Source: Bacteroidetes bacterium HLUCCA01 (GTDB taxonomy: Bacteria > Bacteroidota > Rhodothermia > Balneolales > HLUCCA01). Taken from it: a stretch of DNA of 64,000 nt. The translations under genes were made by a program, and so were the position numbers. The stretch spans positions 62,001 through 126,000 of the forward strand of contig LIHN01000018.1 in NCBI GenBank assembly GCA_001314545.1, read 5' to 3'. Shown here one piece after another: positions 38,655-46,480 of the stretch. The notes below the pieces were generated by a model. The model made no database searches, was not told where the DNA came from, and saw only the letters and a program-made list of their open reading frames with translations. The number at the start of each line of letters is the position of its first letter. Positions within the stretch are counted from its first letter, which is position 1.

Positions 38655-40106
38655 TCAGAAATTAAAGGTAATACCAAACATAGCCTGTAACCGGTTGACC
38701 TCCTGGGATGAACTTGCTATTCCGGCATCACTGAACTGATAGATGTCCAGCACATCATTGTACATGGCATATTGGAAACCAAAGTCCAGGTTAATCCCTT
38801 CACTGAGCAGCAGTGTAGCTCCGGCACTCAGAAACCCGATATCACCATCAAAAGCCTTGCGCGGACTCGGATGCCAGGCATAGCCCACCCTCGGTGTAAA
38901 CTGCGGAGTTACACTAAAACTGGCTCCAGCCCTGAGGTTGACAACATCGTTGAAATCATCCCGGATAGCACGGTTTTCATCGCGATCCTGGGTCAGGCCC
39001 AGTCCGTTGAATTCAATACGGCTGTAATTGATACGCTCTGCACTGAGTTCCAGGTCAAGTTGGGGAATCAGCCCTACTCCAACGCCAAATGTAGTTACCG
39101 ATGGTCGGGTTAACCGGTAACTGAACTCCCCGTTAAAAGTATCCTCATAACGGTTGAATCCGTCCTGATCCAGGCTGTAGTAGTCTGTCCGAATGAACGT
39201 ACTGTAAATCTCATCGATGTCATAAACCGTTCGGCTGGTAAAACTTCCTCCCAGACGAAGGCCTTCAACCGGCTCGTAGAGGGCACCTATGCGAACGTTC
39301 GCACCACGAATACTGGCATTGATGCGGTCTTCGGTCAGCAGCATGCTTATATCAAAGGGGGCATCCACATAGCGTTCGAGCAAATCCTCTTCTACAAAGT
39401 CCCGCCGGTATCGGTAATCGCCAACAATCACACCAATGGAAGCACCTACATAAAAATTGGGCTGGAACTCGGTACCAAGCACAAAGCTATACTCTCCAAG
39501 CTGGCCCCGCTCGGTCAGTTCGGCGTACTGATTCATACCACGGAATGTTCCGTCAGCCCGCAGCACGTTAAAATATTCCTCGAATTCTTCATCAAACTCA
39601 ATAGCAAAGGCATTGAACGCCGTAGTAAAGTACTGGTCGCCGGGATCGCGAAGAAAAAAATCCACGATACTGTGACTCTCATTGAAGGCATTAATGGAGC
39701 TCGCACGATTAAAATCGGCCAGTTCGGTATACCCTCCGCCTACAACAAGACTCCCCCTGGAAGTTGGGAAACGGTACAGATAACCTACATTGCCTATGGC
39801 TGTCTGGTTATCGTTGAAAGACGTGGTATTGCCAAGATAGGTGCTGGACTCACGCACATCCCGCGTACTCAATCCAAAGGAAAACTGACTTTGTTCGATG
39901 AGTGCGATGTTGGCTGGATTTTGAATGTAAGAGCCATATCCTGCAAAACCGGTCACGGTAGCACCACCCAGTGAGAGGGAGGCTGCATCGTAGGAAGGCA
40001 TGGTCTGGGAAAACCGGAGTCCGTCGAAACGGTTTTGCGATTCAGCCAGCGAAGGGTTCATAACCCAGAACATCAGGCATAGGGTAAACAGTGCAATCGG
40101 TTTCAT
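38655..40106 (-). CDS. FadL/OmpP1-like outer-membrane barrel protein
   Basis: The 483-residue protein has a signal peptide ending SLAESQ. A Gly/Asn-rich N-terminal segment, ASLSLGGATVTGFAGYGSYI then QNPANIAL, resembles the OmpP1/FadL/PorV-type hatch region. Alternating amphipathic beta strands follow, ending in Phe (FGITFNF), the outer-membrane barrel signature. It may import hydrophobic compounds or be a type 9 secretion PorV relative; sequence alone does not decide. It is 87 bp downstream of the lipoprotein gene on the same strand, with a hairpin between. Confidence 0.82.
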   Translation of the reverse strand: MKPIALFTLCLMFWVMNPSLAESQNRFDGLRFSQTMPSYDAASLSLGGATVTGFAGYGSYIQNPANIALIEQSQFSFGLSTRDVRESSTYLGNTTSFNDNQTAIGNVGYLYRFPTSRGSLVVGGGYTELADFNRASSINAFNESHSIVDFFLRDPGDQYFTTAFNAFAIEFDEEFEEYFNVLRADGTFRGMNQYAELTERGQLGEYSFVLGTEFQPNFYVGASIGVIVGDYRYRRDFVEEDLLERYVDAPFDISMLLTEDRINASIRGANVRIGALYEPVEGLRLGGSFTSRTVYDIDEIYSTFIRTDYYSLDQDGFNRYEDTFNGEFSYRLTRPSVTTFGVGVGLIPQLDLELSAERINYSRIEFNGLGLTQDRDENRAIRDDFNDVVNLRAGASFSVTPQFTPRVGYAWHPSPRKAFDGDIGFLSAGATLLLSEGINLDFGFQYAMYNDVLDIYQFSDAGIASSSQEVNRLQAMFGITFNF

Positions 40107-40193: not shown

Positions 40194-41642
40194 TTAATCG
40201 CGGTTGCGGGAACGAGCGGTACTGCGCTCCGTGGTGCGACTGCGTTGCGGGGTTGCGGCAGATTGACTACGTTGCGCAGGTGCAGGACGAGCAGCAGGTG
40301 CGGGGCGAGGCGCCGGGGCCGGACGAGCGGAGGGCTGTACAGACCGTGGTGTCGGGGCAGGTCTTGCCGAGGGTTGCCTGGTCGCAGACGAAGTCTGCGG
40401 TCGGTTCATATTCCGGCTCACACCGGTTGAAGCGTTTCGGTACATACCCGAAGGGCGGGTCGATTCTTCGCGATAACCCGCGCTGCCTGACCTGCCGTTA
40501 GTGCGGGTATTGTACACCCCCTGATCTGCTGACGATCGATTGATACCGGTTCGGGAGGTGGTACGCGGCGGCTGGGGCAGTTGATCACGGGTATTGACCA
40601 GACGCTCCCTGCTACGGGTATCGCCTGGTAATACTACGGGCAAATCGTTGGACGATTGAAGATCATTTCCGCGGGGCCGACGCGTTCTTCCTTCGGTTGA
40701 ACTGCTTCCCGATCTGCTTCTGCCGGATCGCACAGTACCTGAGCTGCGACCGGTATTTCCGCGCTGTACGGTTCCGGATGAGCCGGGTCGGGACGTTCCC
40801 GTTCTGACCGTTCGGCCTGAACTGCGACCGGTTTGCGATGTAGAACGGCCTACGGTACCACGTGAACGACCCTCGGTTGCCGGAGATCGGCGCACAGTGG
40901 TATTGTCACGACTGACGCCGCTGTTACGGGATCCGGAAGATACTGTAGTACGGTTATCGCCACGTACGTTGGTTGAAGCTACACCTCTGCCAACATTCCT
41001 GCCGTCACGGCTGACGCCGCTGTTTCGGGGCCCACGGTACACGTTATTGTTGACTGTATTGTGATTATATACTATCCAGGTATTGCCGTAGCCACCCCAC
41101 CCATGATGTGGTCTGTGATAACCATAAAAGAAAACCGGATGAGCGTAACCGTAGTAACTGGAATAGTAGTACGGACTGTAATGCCAGAAATGGTGGGGTC
41201 GGTTCCAGCCCCAACTTACGTGAAATGCCCAGTAGCTGTCATACCAGAAGGGATCCCAGTAGCCGCCGTAAAATCTGCTATGAAAGCGGTTGCGGTAGTA
41301 CGACCAGGAAGCATCATGATACCCGTCGCTATACCCTAGTGAATACTCATTACGGGATGATACCGGCTGGTAACGATCATAATCACGGTAATAAATTTCC
41401 AGATCACTGAAACCATCGTCATAACCGGCATAGTAGGAGTCTTCGCTGAACTCATCAAGCTCATAGGCCCGCTCATCCAGGCGGACTTCATCCTGCGGGT
41501 TGTAGGCCCGGTTCGGTTCAGGCCGTTCGTAGGGTTGCGAGTACGGTGCAGGACGCTCCACAACCTCGAGTTGTGTATAACAACCACTGAGCATAATGGC
41601 CAGCATGCTGAAACTAAAAATTCGGGTAGGGGTTGTTTTCAT
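40194..41642 (-). CDS. Lipoprotein with aromatic/His-rich core and disordered Ser/Arg/Thr tail
   Basis: The 482-residue protein has a lipoprotein signal with lipobox MLSGC. Residues about 30-100 are acidic and Tyr-rich with two similar GYxDGYxD-like motifs. About 100-185 is extremely rich in Tyr, Trp, His and Phe. The rest is a low-complexity Ser/Arg/Thr/Gly, then Pro/Ala/Arg, tail with repeats such as SGVSRD. I do not recognise a family with a known function. The ATG at 41642 starts the signal peptide; a frame from 41723 would add 27 residues. It follows a response-regulator gene and a 16-bp palindrome. Confidence 0.8.
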   Translation of the reverse strand: MKTTPTRIFSFSMLAIMLSGCYTQLEVVERPAPYSQPYERPEPNRAYNPQDEVRLDERAYELDEFSEDSYYAGYDDGFSDLEIYYRDYDRYQPVSSRNEYSLGYSDGYHDASWSYYRNRFHSRFYGGYWDPFWYDSYWAFHVSWGWNRPHHFWHYSPYYYSSYYGYAHPVFFYGYHRPHHGWGGYGNTWIVYNHNTVNNNVYRGPRNSGVSRDGRNVGRGVASTNVRGDNRTTVSSGSRNSGVSRDNTTVRRSPATEGRSRGTVGRSTSQTGRSSGRTVRTGTSRPGSSGTVQRGNTGRSSGTVRSGRSRSGSSSTEGRTRRPRGNDLQSSNDLPVVLPGDTRSRERLVNTRDQLPQPPRTTSRTGINRSSADQGVYNTRTNGRSGSAGYREESTRPSGMYRNASTGVSRNMNRPQTSSATRQPSARPAPTPRSVQPSARPAPAPRPAPAARPAPAQRSQSAATPQRSRTTERSTARSRNRD

Positions 41643-41749
41643 AATGAGCCTCACTGCTAGTTTGGTTCCGGTTATCAAATACTGTAACGCAGCAGACACG
41701 CGATTCATTTCAGTGAAATTCACCTGCTAAATACACGTTTCTTGATAAC

Positions 41750-41794
41750 AGTATACTTTTGAAAATCAAATGCTACAATAACATCATGATGTTA
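41750..41794 (-). promoter_or_regulatory. 16-bp palindrome abutting a possible lipoprotein-gene promoter
   Basis: TAACATCATGATGTTA at 41779-41794 is a perfect 16-bp palindrome. Reading the minus strand, it is directly followed by TTGTAG, 17 nt, then TATACT at 41750-41755. That gives a weak -35 and a good -10 about 100 nt upstream of the lipoprotein ATG. The layout suits an activator site next to the -35 box. Confidence 0.4.
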
Positions 41795-41842: not shown

Positions 41843-42493
41843 TTAAATTTCGCCCCGGAGCGATTTGGCGATGACTTCGGCCTTGGAATTCACATGGAGT
41901 TTTTTGTAAATATTGCGAATGTGTGCCCGAACTGTGTCAATTGATATATCCATGCGATCAGCGATCATCTTATAACTGAGCCCATCCACCAGTCCAACCA
42001 CAATTTCCTGTTCCCGCATAGTCAGACCTGAATCGGGTTTTTCCTCTTCTTTGCCTGCTGGTTCACTGAAATGCGTAATTACCTTCCGGGCAATCTGGGG
42101 TGACATGGGTGCTCCTCCCTGTAAAACCACATCAATGGCGTCTTTAATCTCAGGCAGTGAAGTATGCTTGAGCAGGTAGCCGCTGGCTCCGGATCGTAAT
42201 GAGTTAAAAATTTTATGCGAGTCGTGGTATACCGTAAGCATAATAATTTCTACTTCCGGATATTTGGATTTAATCAGTTTCATACCATCAATCCCCGACA
42301 TACCTTCCAGGTCAATGTCCATCAGAACAATATCCGGCATATCGCCTTCACGCATCACGGCAAGCAGGTTCTCCACCGAACTGAAAGCATTTCGGCATTC
42401 CATATCTGCCTGCATATTCAGAAACTGTTGAATAAGGTCCCGGATTTTGACGTTATCTTCTACAATTGCGATTTGTTTTTTTGACGCTGACAT
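41843..42493 (-). CDS. LuxR/NarL-type response regulator
   Basis: The 216-residue DNA-binding response regulator has a receiver domain (phospho-acceptor Asp in IVLMDIDLEGMSG, Lys near residue 105). Its C-terminal LuxR helix-turn-helix has LTMREQEIVVGLVDGLSYKM then TVRAHIRNIYKKLHVNSK. It starts 5 bp after the sensor kinase gene and is its evident partner. The target genes are unknown, but a palindrome lies directly downstream, before the lipoprotein gene. Confidence 0.94.
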   Translation of the reverse strand: MSASKKQIAIVEDNVKIRDLIQQFLNMQADMECRNAFSSVENLLAVMREGDMPDIVLMDIDLEGMSGIDGMKLIKSKYPEVEIIMLTVYHDSHKIFNSLRSGASGYLLKHTSLPEIKDAIDVVLQGGAPMSPQIARKVITHFSEPAGKEEEKPDSGLTMREQEIVVGLVDGLSYKMIADRMDISIDTVRAHIRNIYKKLHVNSKAEVIAKSLRGEI

Positions 42494-42498
42494 GGCTT

Positions 42499-45402
42499 TT
42501 ATTTTTTTCCGGTGATGGTGATGGTTAATCCATTTTCGTTTTTGTATTCAAGTGCCGCATGAATTCTGGAAGCACGTAGGGCTATATTTTTAAGCCCATG
42601 CCCGCCCGGGCGTGTCTTCTCAGGCAGCCCCTTACCATTATCTTTGATTTGCAGGGTGTATGCGGATGCATCCATGCTAAGGGTCACTTCAACCGTGGTA
42701 GCTTCTGCATGTTTTGCCGCATTGTTGAGTGATTCTTTAAAGATAAGGTACAGATTTTGACGCAGTTCAAGTGGAACAACGGCCTGCGAATCAATTCCCC
42801 TGAAATGAAAAACCGGTTCAATCCCCTTTGGCGAAAGTACGTTGGTCGCATAATCCTGCATACGGTCCAGCAGGTCTCCGTAAGAATCGTTGCGGGCATC
42901 AATTGACCATACAATATCATCCATCGTTGTTACAATACGTCTGGACATTTCCCCGATCTGTTTTAACGACTCTCCGGTCTTCGGGTCTTTTTGAATAGCC
43001 TGGAGGAAGTCAGACTGCAGAGCAATTTCCGTCAGTGATGCGCCTACATCATCATGGAGATCGCTGGCAATTCGGATTCGGATGCGCTCCAGATCAACCA
43101 TTCGGGAAATCCGGTAGTAGTTGTACAAAAAGGCGGCTACCAGCAGCACTGCGAACACGATCAATACGGCAAACCACCACGTTTTCCAGAAGGGTGGCAG
43201 AATTACAAAGGAAATAACATCCGGCTGCGGGCTCCAGTACCCGTCACTGTTTCGGGCACGTACTTCAAATCGGTATTCCCCGTCAGGAAGGGTGGTATAG
43301 CGCACGGAGCGTTGCGTGGTTCGCTGCCATTGCTGATCAGCACCCCGGAGTCGGTATTCATAGACAAGTTCCGAGGGATTTGCAAAGGCCAGTCCTGTGA
43401 AATTGAACCCGATAAAGTTCTCGTCATGACGAAACTCATAGGCTCCCGCAGGCAGCCGTTCACCAAAGAGGGTCATTTCTTCAATATGAACGGGGGGACC
43501 GGAGGTAATTTCAAGGTCCAGACGCCATCGGAAATGGTTCGCACCCGTCACCGTACCCATCCAGAAACTCCCGTCACGGGCAGTATACACAGCGTTGGCG
43601 ATGTTCTCATTGGATATCAGCCCGGATTCGGTTGTGTATTGCTTGAATCGGATCATATCACGTACACGGGCCGGATCGGTGTCTTCCTGCAGAATTTGCG
43701 GGTTATATCGAAGCAACCCGTTATTGGATCCGATCCAGATGAACCCTCGCTCATCTTCGGTTATGAAATAAGCTACCGGCTGAGGCAACCCGTTACTGCT
43801 GTTAAGGGTACGAAGCTGTCCGCCAAAGTAAATGCTGATCCCGTCGAATGTCCCAATCCATATCTGACCCAGACTGTCCTCAAACAATGTCATGGCATTA
43901 TTGTTGGCCAGACCGTTATCGGTGTTGAATACTTCCGTTCGCTCCCCGTCAATGCGGACAACCCCTCCATAGGTAGCCGCCCAGAGGACACCGTTACGGT
44001 CTTCGAGTACATCCATGACGATATTGTTGGGTAACCGGTTATTGGAGGTATCCAGAACGGCAACCTGTCTGCCGGCGGTGTACCTTGCCAGGCCACCACC
44101 ATAGGTTGCGACCCAAAAATCACCCTTACTGTCTTCCAGTATGGACCGAACTTTCGGATCCGGCAGATCCGGAAATTGATTGCCCGGATAAATCCGACCG
44201 TTTTCCATCAAACTAACCCCGTTACGCGTGCCAATCCAGACCCTGTCTTCCCGGTCACGCATCATGGTGTAAACACGGTTATCAATGAGATTATCTGCTG
44301 TGGTAATATTCCGCACCCGGAACCCGTCGATCACTGCTATCCCTCCACCGTAAGTCCCGATCATCATCCTGCCCGACCTGTCTTCCATGAACGAGGTGGT
44401 CAGATTGCTCAATAAGCCCTGTTGAACGGAATAATGCTGAATTTTCTCGCTGACCAGTAAATCCAGTCCCCCACCGTAGGTACCAATCCATATATTATTT
44501 TCACGGTCACGCATCAGACTGGTGATAATATTGTTAGACAACCCATTAGCGTCAGTAAAATTAGAAATTCTGCCTTCGTAGTAATGCGAGAGACCTCCCT
44601 CGGTTCCAATCCAGACACCTCCCTTACCATCTTCCATCAGCCGGGTAACCCGGGGATGAATCAACCCGTCAGCTACATTCAGATACGAAAGCTCCCCGTC
44701 TTTCAGGATGGTAATTCCGTCTCGGGTTGCAGCCCAGATACTGCCGTCCGACATTCTCACCAGACTTCGTGTCCGGTTTTCACTCAGTCCGTCGGCCTCA
44801 TAATAACTCTGAATTACGCTTCGATCTGTAATTGACAATACCGATATCCCGCCGCGAGTTGCCACAGCCAGACGTTCTTCATCCAGCCGGATAATATCCC
44901 GCACCTCATTGTCTGCCAGACCGTTCGCTGTGGAGTAATACTGGTAGGTATCGCTGCGAAAGTGATGCAATCCCTCATTCTCGGTACCTACCCATAAGCC
45001 ACCGGACTGATCTTCGAACAGCACATTGACCTTGGTGCCACGTAGAATCTGAGTGCCCGGAAGGGGTTCAAAACGGCCATCCGGGCGGATATAATCCAGG
45101 CCTCGTTCTGTCCCGATCAGTATAGTCCGGTCGCGTAGTTGCAACAGCGAGGTAACGCCGTTGTTCGACAAGCCGTCGGCTTCAAAATACTGTTCAAACT
45201 GATAACGATTAAACCGGTTGAGTCCAATCTCCGTGGCAATCCAGACATATCCTTCATGATCTTGTATAACATCGTTGATGACCGACTGGCTCATGCCGGA
45301 CTGAATCGAGAAATTCTTAAACGGCAGTCCCTGACCCCGGGCAAGACCTGCCGTCAAGGCAATACACAAAATTCCGGTTAGCAATGGTACTATTTTCATC
45401 AT
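42499..45402 (-). CDS. Sensor histidine kinase with two Reg_prop beta-propellers
   Basis: This 967-residue sensor has a signal peptide ending LARGQG and about 14 Reg_prop repeats with the W-I-G-T-x-G-G-L signature (e.g. VWIGTEGGLSHY, IWIGTYGGGLDLL), enough for two seven-bladed propellers. A Y_Y_Y domain (RSVRYTTLPDGEYRFEVRAR) and one membrane helix (about 770-790) follow. The kinase has a HisKA_3 dimerisation motif with phospho-His in SDLHDDVGASLTEIA and an ATP-binding domain (DNGKGLPEK, GGHGLKNI). Unlike Bacteroides hybrid systems it has no fused receiver or AraC domain. I chose ATG 45402; a TTG at 45411 is an alternative. Confidence 0.93.
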   Translation of the reverse strand: MMKIVPLLTGILCIALTAGLARGQGLPFKNFSIQSGMSQSVINDVIQDHEGYVWIATEIGLNRFNRYQFEQYFEADGLSNNGVTSLLQLRDRTILIGTERGLDYIRPDGRFEPLPGTQILRGTKVNVLFEDQSGGLWVGTENEGLHHFRSDTYQYYSTANGLADNEVRDIIRLDEERLAVATRGGISVLSITDRSVIQSYYEADGLSENRTRSLVRMSDGSIWAATRDGITILKDGELSYLNVADGLIHPRVTRLMEDGKGGVWIGTEGGLSHYYEGRISNFTDANGLSNNIITSLMRDRENNIWIGTYGGGLDLLVSEKIQHYSVQQGLLSNLTTSFMEDRSGRMMIGTYGGGIAVIDGFRVRNITTADNLIDNRVYTMMRDREDRVWIGTRNGVSLMENGRIYPGNQFPDLPDPKVRSILEDSKGDFWVATYGGGLARYTAGRQVAVLDTSNNRLPNNIVMDVLEDRNGVLWAATYGGVVRIDGERTEVFNTDNGLANNNAMTLFEDSLGQIWIGTFDGISIYFGGQLRTLNSSNGLPQPVAYFITEDERGFIWIGSNNGLLRYNPQILQEDTDPARVRDMIRFKQYTTESGLISNENIANAVYTARDGSFWMGTVTGANHFRWRLDLEITSGPPVHIEEMTLFGERLPAGAYEFRHDENFIGFNFTGLAFANPSELVYEYRLRGADQQWQRTTQRSVRYTTLPDGEYRFEVRARNSDGYWSPQPDVISFVILPPFWKTWWFAVLIVFAVLLVAAFLYNYYRISRMVDLERIRIRIASDLHDDVGASLTEIALQSDFLQAIQKDPKTGESLKQIGEMSRRIVTTMDDIVWSIDARNDSYGDLLDRMQDYATNVLSPKGIEPVFHFRGIDSQAVVPLELRQNLYLIFKESLNNAAKHAEATTVEVTLSMDASAYTLQIKDNGKGLPEKTRPGGHGLKNIALRASRIHAALEYKNENGLTITITGKK

Positions 45403-45441
45403 TTCAGACAAACGGTTTCACCAAAAGGCATATTTCAACAT

Positions 45442-45490: not shown

Positions 45491-46384
45491 TCAGCCCAGA
45501 TACGTACGTAATGCCATACTCCGGTTGTGGTGCCGCAGTTTACGCAACGCCTTTTCCTTGATTTGCCGTACCCGTTCACGGGTTAAATCAAAGCGTTCGC
45601 CAATTTCTTCCAGAGTAAGGGAATGCTCCCTGCCAATGCCGAAATACAATCGCACAACCTCGGCTTCCCGCTTGCTCAGCTTAGATAAGGCACGCTCAAT
45701 TTCTACCTTAAGCGACTCTCCCATCAGCTCATTATCGGGATTGGGTGTCTCTTCGTTTTCAATGACATCCAGCAGTCTGTTGTCTTCTCCCTGGGCAAAC
45801 GGTGCATCCATCGAAAGGTGCCGGCCTGAAATCCGAAGCGTATCGGATACCTCCGCAATGGTCATACCCAGGCTTTCTGCCAGCTCTACGGCCGATGGCG
45901 CTCTTTCATAATTCTGCTCCAGCTTGGAGAGTTCTTTCCCGATTTTGTTGAGTGCACCCACCCGGTTAAGAGGCAACCGGACGATACGACTCTGCTCGGC
46001 CAGTGCCTGCAGTATGGACTGACGAATCCACCATACAGCGTATGATATAAATTTAAATCCACGCGTTTCGTCGAAGCGCTTGGCAGCTTTAATCAGACCC
46101 AGGTTTCCCTCGTTAATCAAGTCACCAAGTGAAAGTCCCTGATTTTGATACTGTTTTGCTACCGAAACCACAAAGCGCAGGTTGGCTTTGGTGAGCTTTT
46201 CCAGGGCATCCTGATTACCGGCCTGAATTTCTTTGGCCAGTCGAACTTCCTCATCCGGTGTTATGAGCGAAACCTTGCCAATTTCCTGCAAGTAACGATC
46301 CAACGATTGCGACTCGCGGGTGGAGATGCCAGACGGGGTCGGATTTTTTGCTTCTTTCTTCTTTTTAGCCACGGCAGTTTCCAT
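45491..46384 (-). CDS. rpoD: Primary sigma factor RpoD (region 1.1 absent)
   Basis: The 297-residue housekeeping sigma-70 factor has region 1.2 ([16 protein letters not shown]), region 2 ([20 protein letters not shown], then [16 protein letters not shown]), region 3 and region 4 ([20 protein letters not shown] then [11 protein letters not shown]). The short basic N terminus and missing region 1.1 are typical of Bacteroidota-type RpoD. I chose the ATG at 46384 ([10 protein letters not shown]); a frame from 46411 would add 9 residues. A TATAAT lies about 97 nt upstream and a terminator follows. Confidence 0.95.
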
Positions 46385-46480
46385 CAGGTTCCGGTTTCTT
46401 GAGAACAGCATTGACCGGCAGGCACCGGTCGCTCCTCATACTGCGGTGAAAGTACATACTTTACCCGTAATATTCCATTG

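Follow-up and report, generated by a model that had tools for sequence, protein, structure and literature searches.

A conserved operator-like palindrome behind a NarL-type response regulator gene and its predicted regulon in the order Balneolales

The window, the whole stretch of 64,000 nucleotides that was analysed, contained a two-component system, a palindromic site and a lipoprotein gene on its minus strand. The features of the locus, in the direction of transcription, were as follows.

45491–46411, minus strand: rpoD-like sigma gene, upstream of the sensor kinase gene
42499–45411, minus strand: sensor histidine kinase, with Reg_prop propeller, Y_Y_Y, HisKA_3 and HATPase_c domain matches; likely partner of the regulator
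41843–42493, minus strand: NarL/LuxR-type response regulator, 216 aa, with Response_reg and GerE domains; proposed operator binder
41778–41794, minus strand: predicted operator, 17 nt, TAACATCATGATGTTAT (family consensus TMACATNNNNATGTKAT); found in 59/59 usable spacers, matrix score 24.0
41750–41755, minus strand: –10-like element TATACT, 22 nt after the 17-nt operator; TANNNT at the same offset in relatives
41741–41743, minus strand: predicted transcription start, at the purine-rich columns 51–53 counted from the operator start
40194–41642, minus strand: CYTQ lipoprotein, 482 aa; lipobox LSGC followed by YTQ, from the sequence
38655–40106, minus strand: FadL/Toluene_X-type outer-membrane protein, downstream of the lipoprotein gene; possible co-transcribed target

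The sequence-only reading had reported a perfect 16-bp palindrome between the response regulator and lipoprotein genes, and this palindrome, TAACATCATGATGTTA, was confirmed at positions 41779–41794. On the minus strand, the response regulator gene, whose stop codon ended at 41843, was followed by the palindrome, the hexamer TTGTAG (41778–41773), 17 nt, the element TATACT (41755–41750) and the ATG of the lipoprotein gene at 41642. The exact 16-mer had a single occurrence in the window, as in the whole 3.37-Mb genome. A matrix composed of the sites of relatives and the window's own site gave the palindrome site a score of 24.0, and no other place in the window exceeded 11 when both strands were scanned. 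The number of perfect 16-bp palindromes in the window was three, with 0.98 ± 0.91 expected by chance, and the chance of finding one in a single 200-nt spacer of the same composition was ~0.6%. The bare palindrome is at chance level, and the significance of the site lies in its conservation, not in its palindromy.

The regulator was composed of a receiver domain (PF00072, 79.8 bits) and a LuxR/GerE domain (PF00196, 56.9 bits), both over the cut-off, which supports the comparison with LuxR/NarL-type regulators made in the sequence-only reading. The closest solved structures were VraR and then NarL, while none of the 25 NCBIfam models listed reached its cut-off, the top one being MctR with 126 bits against 300. 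The recognition helix, SIDTVRAHIRNIYKK, was invariant in 62 orthologues. The combination of receiver and GerE domains with an inverted repeat of ~16 bp resembled NarL and VraR. The sites of NarL are 7-2-7 heptamer pairs, comparable to this inverted repeat in size, whereas the half-site TMACAT differs from the NarL heptamer. The HisKA_3 and HATPase_c domains of the kinase were both over the cut-off, and a kinase homologue was located directly upstream of the regulator at 63 of 63 loci. No operator was found before the kinase gene in the window, and thus there was no sign of autoregulation there. The lipoprotein matched no Pfam or NCBIfam model at an E value of 0.001. A CYTQ-type lipoprotein also lay behind the regulator in relatives, and a homologue of the outer-membrane protein was located downstream at 54 of 63 loci.

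Of the 128 genomes searched in the order, 88 gave a regulator match (E ≤ 1e-50), and the comparison drew on the best 80 of 162 confirmed loci. The spacer set contained the 62 loci with a regulator identity of at least 65%, minus four and plus the window, which gave 59. Three loci (L038, L060, and L071) were dropped because a contig end cut the spacer, and L074 was dropped as a regulator with neither an adjoining site nor a CYTQ gene next to it. In L062, one of the 59, the sequence ended before the would-be start of the lipoprotein gene, and the CYTQ gene was not seen. Conservation in relatives had been named in the sequence-only reading, beside binding, as a point on which its proposal would stand or fall, and the site, recurring as TMACATNNNNATGTKAT, was found in all 59 usable Balneolales spacers behind the regulator. 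All 10 core positions were matched in 50 spacers and 9 of 10 in the other nine, figures that include some bias toward a match from choosing the best match per spacer within 400 nt; the downstream element was not used in this choice. Eight operator columns (T0, C3, A4, T5, A10, T11, G12, and A15) were invariant (n = 59). The site was located 5–151 nt from the stop codon of the regulator in relatives.

When the own genome and its relatives were searched with the pattern, sites also appeared before an ECF-type sigma-factor gene. In the own genome the sigma gene was located on contig C7 and the two-component genes on C9. The gene adjoining the sigma gene matched the NCBIfam 'antisigma' model with 48.1 bits, below the cut-off of 100. 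An orthologue of the sigma gene was present in 116 of 124 genomes, some having the regulator and others lacking it, and therefore served as a natural experiment on the link between site and regulator. The scan used a matrix from the lipoprotein-gene sites and a threshold of 13.8, which was the 99th percentile of shuffles, the largest shuffle scoring 17.5. In the first scan, 72 of the 73 genomes with the regulator and 6 of the 36 without it had a site; among six added genomes, all five positives had the site and the negative, G102, had none. In total, the same operator with the same spacing was found in 77 of 78 regulator-positive genomes versus 6 of 37 genomes with no detected regulator, which covered 115 of the 116 genomes with the sigma gene; G061, a fragment starting at a contig edge, was left out. 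All sites in the positives scored best in one common orientation, and those of the first scan were 79–327 nt from the matched sigma start. The weakest positive site (G088, 17.1) was under the largest shuffle, and the remaining ones scored at least 18.5. The G083 genome had the regulator and the lipoprotein site, but the sigma-gene site was absent. Conversely, G107 had the regulator and the sigma-gene site, but behind the regulator there was no site and no CYTQ frame among those listed.

The six regulator-negative genomes with a site (G037, G049, G051, G053, G060, and G070) were 62–91% complete assemblies of genera g8 and g14, and their sister genomes contained the regulator. A lenient search of these six gave no full regulator orthologue and, in five, no trace at all; G051 contained a 35-residue piece identical to the C-terminus of the regulator. 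We infer that the regulator is missing merely from these incomplete assemblies. The other 31 negatives belonged to family f3 (11 genomes), family f5 (18) and family f2 (two small genomes, G040 and G094); four of the 31 (G113, G124, G117, and G098), with just 128–466 nt of upstream sequence, carry less weight.

The promoters of the two genes shared one geometry. The TATACT element of the window was located exactly on columns 39–44 counted from the operator start. Of the 59 lipoprotein promoters, 32 had a TANNNT starting at column 39, as did 66 of the 77 distinct sigma-gene promoters; in both sets, the highest count reached by any of 1000 shuffles, whatever the offset, was 12. The relaxed A-N3-T occupied this position in 53 of the 59 and 72 of the 77, respectively. 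The 77 distinct promoters were drawn from the 78 sites of the first scan, with the five later-added positives not among them; the two sets came largely from the same organisms, several of the genomes being the same assemblies as the named loci. The sequence-only reading had placed a –35-like box directly beside the palindrome, 17 nt from TATACT. The positions were as described, while the box itself, TTGTAG, was not conserved in relatives: columns 17–23 of the lipoprotein promoters contained 0.1–0.6 bits, and columns 17–38, which cover most of the supposed box, did not exceed 0.62 bits. In the sigma-gene promoters, columns 17–21 contained a moderate 0.25–1.05 bits, which tended toward AGAAA and not toward a TTG-type –35. 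The purine signal near the predicted start peaked at column 53 in lipoprotein promoters and at column 51 in sigma-gene promoters.

The palindrome could also be read as a chance inverted repeat or as a weak hairpin ending the transcript of the regulator, and the chance frequency of 16-bp palindromes in the window and the position of the site 5–151 nt behind the stop codon of the regulator would agree with this. However, conservation in 59/59 spacers ruled out a chance palindrome, and a spacing fixed to the –10 element rather than to the stop codon of the regulator ruled out a terminator. The sigma gene, at another place in the genome, was also preceded by this site with identical spacing, and the terminator scan listed none at the palindrome, so that a reading of this kind is extremely improbable.

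The fixed spacing between operator and –10 element, together with the lack of a conserved –35, was of the class II type. In class II activation, a site near –43.5 with no conserved –35 is expected when the activator takes the role of the –35. Since the '–35 box' was not conserved, the operator probably replaces a –35 rather than abutting one, and probably serves an activator. The regulator could instead bind the palindrome and repress the lipoprotein gene, as binding-site data alone cannot separate activation from repression, but a centre near –43.5 and the missing –35 consensus are the arrangement expected of an activator, which makes repression quite improbable.

Genome-wide counts were compared with the presence of the regulator. 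The pattern TMACATNNNNATGTKA occurred on average 3.31 times in each of 85 regulator-positive genomes, 82 of which had at least one. In regulator-negative genomes the mean was 0.36 (n = 33, with the six exceptions set aside), or 0.51 in all 39, 15 of which had at least one. The reversed-pattern control gave 0.66 and 0.15 in regulator-positive and regulator-negative genomes, respectively. Part of this difference comes from phylogeny and base composition, and ancestry explains part of the co-occurrence, since regulator and site are both absent from family f3 and from nearly all of f5. With one mismatch allowed, the pattern and its reversed control matched 8 versus 2 times in the own genome, 7 versus 10 in G001, 3 versus 1 in G002 and 17 versus 3 in G003. 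Since the count in G001 was not above the control, single loose matches mean little and many are chance.

Outside the close relatives, a composite pattern joining the operator core to the spaced A-N3-T was searched for at 18 distant regulators (43–54% identity). Pattern A gave three matches versus 0.3 per shuffle (maximum 1). Two of them were at L095, a metagenome-assembled genome (MAG) labelled Melioribacteraceae, one of these being before a lipoprotein-like gene, and the third was at L097, a MAG labelled Saprospiraceae, directly 5' of its own regulator gene. These two were the regulators whose helix-turn-helix (HTH) domain ended in K-x-L-K-G-E-I, as in Balneolales, and pattern A had no match at the remaining 16. 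Pattern B gave three matches (one at L100) versus 0.8 per shuffle (maximum 3), so that only pattern A was telling.

These data bear on whether a different transcription factor binds a real, conserved operator while the regulator is merely a conserved neighbour. Sites were also located far from the regulator gene, and the co-occurrence could reflect ancestry. Nevertheless, the presence of the site followed the regulator, both at the sigma gene and in the genome counts, and the distant pattern A sites stood solely beside regulators of the same HTH type. In the excerpted text of a comparative-genomics study of the LexA regulon of Balneolaeota, the same phylum, the LexA motif is a direct repeat, TTACACATATTTTWTACATA, with SOS genes as targets (PMC7739468). 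That regulon differs from the palindrome regulon in regulator, motif and targets as far as the excerpt goes, and the motif published there ruled out a LexA site (PMC7739468). A different binder is therefore unlikely.

Sequence comparison showed that the operator is conserved, that its spacing to the promoter is fixed, that it recurs at two or more targets and that it co-occurs with the regulator. The most probable reading, to which we assign a probability of about 85%, is that the neighbouring NarL-type response regulator binds the palindrome and activates the lipoprotein gene, within an order-wide regulon. Control of the lipoprotein by this regulator, suggested from the window alone, thus gained support from a site kept in 59/59 spacers, which tracks the regulator across genomes and the HTH type in distant homologues. 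In the proposed mechanism, the propeller-type sensor kinase (42499–45411) would phosphorylate the regulator, and the phosphorylated dimer would bind TMACATNNNNATGTKAT in the place of the –35, with its centre ~43–44 bp before the predicted start. The bound regulator would help RNA polymerase use the TANNNT –10 element, leading to transcription of the CYTQ lipoprotein gene rather than to its repression. The transcript would perhaps read on into the outer-membrane protein gene, a suggestion drawn from gene order; the window had no further site. The same regulator would activate the ECF sigma gene with the possible anti-sigma gene next to it, as well as a small RNA in the window's family.

The pattern TMRCATNNNNATGYKAT matched four distinct sites in the own genome (reversed control, one match): before the lipoprotein gene, the sigma-factor gene and a tonB-like gene, and at an intergenic place on contig C8. 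Each of the four was matched by a counterpart in the single congeneric genome. None of the short frames listed after the C8 site was shared as a gene between these two genomes. A 68-nt block there was identical in both, with a terminator-like hairpin and a T-run at its end, and its folding z-scores were –1.65 to –2.83. The block is a probable small RNA.

G000:C8:155220–155287 (L327; L320:2721–2788): candidate small RNA, with homologues in G001, G002 and G003

In the alignment of three genomes, the candidate showed a conserved 25-nt block and, after it, the terminator-like hairpin. A covariance model built from three of the four genomes of family f1, the window's family, matched all four with 79–98 bits, G003 being the new match. 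In each of the four, an operator-like site started 41–101 nt before the block, with scores of 13.1, 13.1, 13.2 and 23.7, the first three being just under the threshold of 13.8. A TANNNT was located at column 39 in three genomes and one base off in G002. No known Rfam-type RNA family was found in the window at gathering scores, and two matches of L327 and L330 to known families were implausible, both being far below the gathering score. Matches of the RNA model outside f1 (13 genomes, 27–33 bits) had no operator ahead and were rejected as terminator look-alikes; the best site in these ~3-kb loci scored 13.0 and was more than 1 kb away (L338). The tonB-side site (L322:3505–3521; G000:C9:250004–250020) was conserved in the congener but lacked the spaced –10 element whichever way it was read; as a candidate it is weaker, and may act differently or not at all.

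The regulon is probably envelope-related, by analogy: a lipoprotein of the surface is among its predicted targets, as is an ECF sigma factor whose neighbour is weakly anti-sigma-like, and the logic resembles that of CseBC-SigE. CseB is an OmpR-type regulator, in contrast to the NarL-type regulator of Balneolales. According to the excerpted account of Streptomyces coelicolor, the two-component system CseBC drives transcription of the ECF sigma gene sigE, and a lipoprotein gene, cseA, is located beside the two-component genes (PMC6767563). A lipoprotein gene also adjoins the two-component genes in Balneolales, where control of the sigma gene by the regulator is predicted. In that account sigE is part of the cseABC operon and has no anti-sigma factor (PMC6767563), whereas the Balneolales sigma gene is located elsewhere in the genome and is followed by the weakly anti-sigma-like gene. 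Since the phyla are distant, the likeness is convergent at most.

A wider and more tentative proposal, given somewhat less than even odds, is an order-wide, two-layer envelope-response circuit in Balneolales, convergent with CseBC-SigE. The kinase and regulator would act through one strict operator–promoter geometry on an ECF sigma/anti-sigma operon, on a surface lipoprotein with possible feedback to the sensor and, in f1, on a small RNA that ends in a terminator and may adjust outer-membrane proteins; the operator code would also reach the L095 and L097 regulators. A search of open-licence papers found no description of the regulon of this regulator; the kind of system is familiar, while the regulator, operator and targets appear to be undescribed in the literature searched. 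The phylum is described, in the excerpted LexA study, as having scant experimental data (PMC7739468). The present analysis offers a predicted regulatory code for this little-studied phylum, composed of a regulator, an operator, a promoter geometry and a set of conserved targets, among them the ECF sigma factor and the candidate small RNA.

Further sites were found in genus g4 (Balneola) before genes for VWA/YfbK-type, TPR, SPOR-domain and HU-like proteins; some of these sites may be chance. For reading in context, 20 regions were chosen among the genome-wide pattern matches listed. A short AAGACGAG-like string recurred promoter-distal of several g4 operators, within ~55 nt (L174, L175, L178, L181, L183, L184, L187, and L190). 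At L326:302–5510, the ECF sigma frame, as listed, overlapped an anti-sigma-like frame, with parA- and parB-like frames downstream and a uvrC-like frame upstream (names given by eye). In G107 (family f4), two operator-like sites were located 33 bp apart before the sigma gene (C45:31252–31301), and one of them was identical in sequence to an L095 site.
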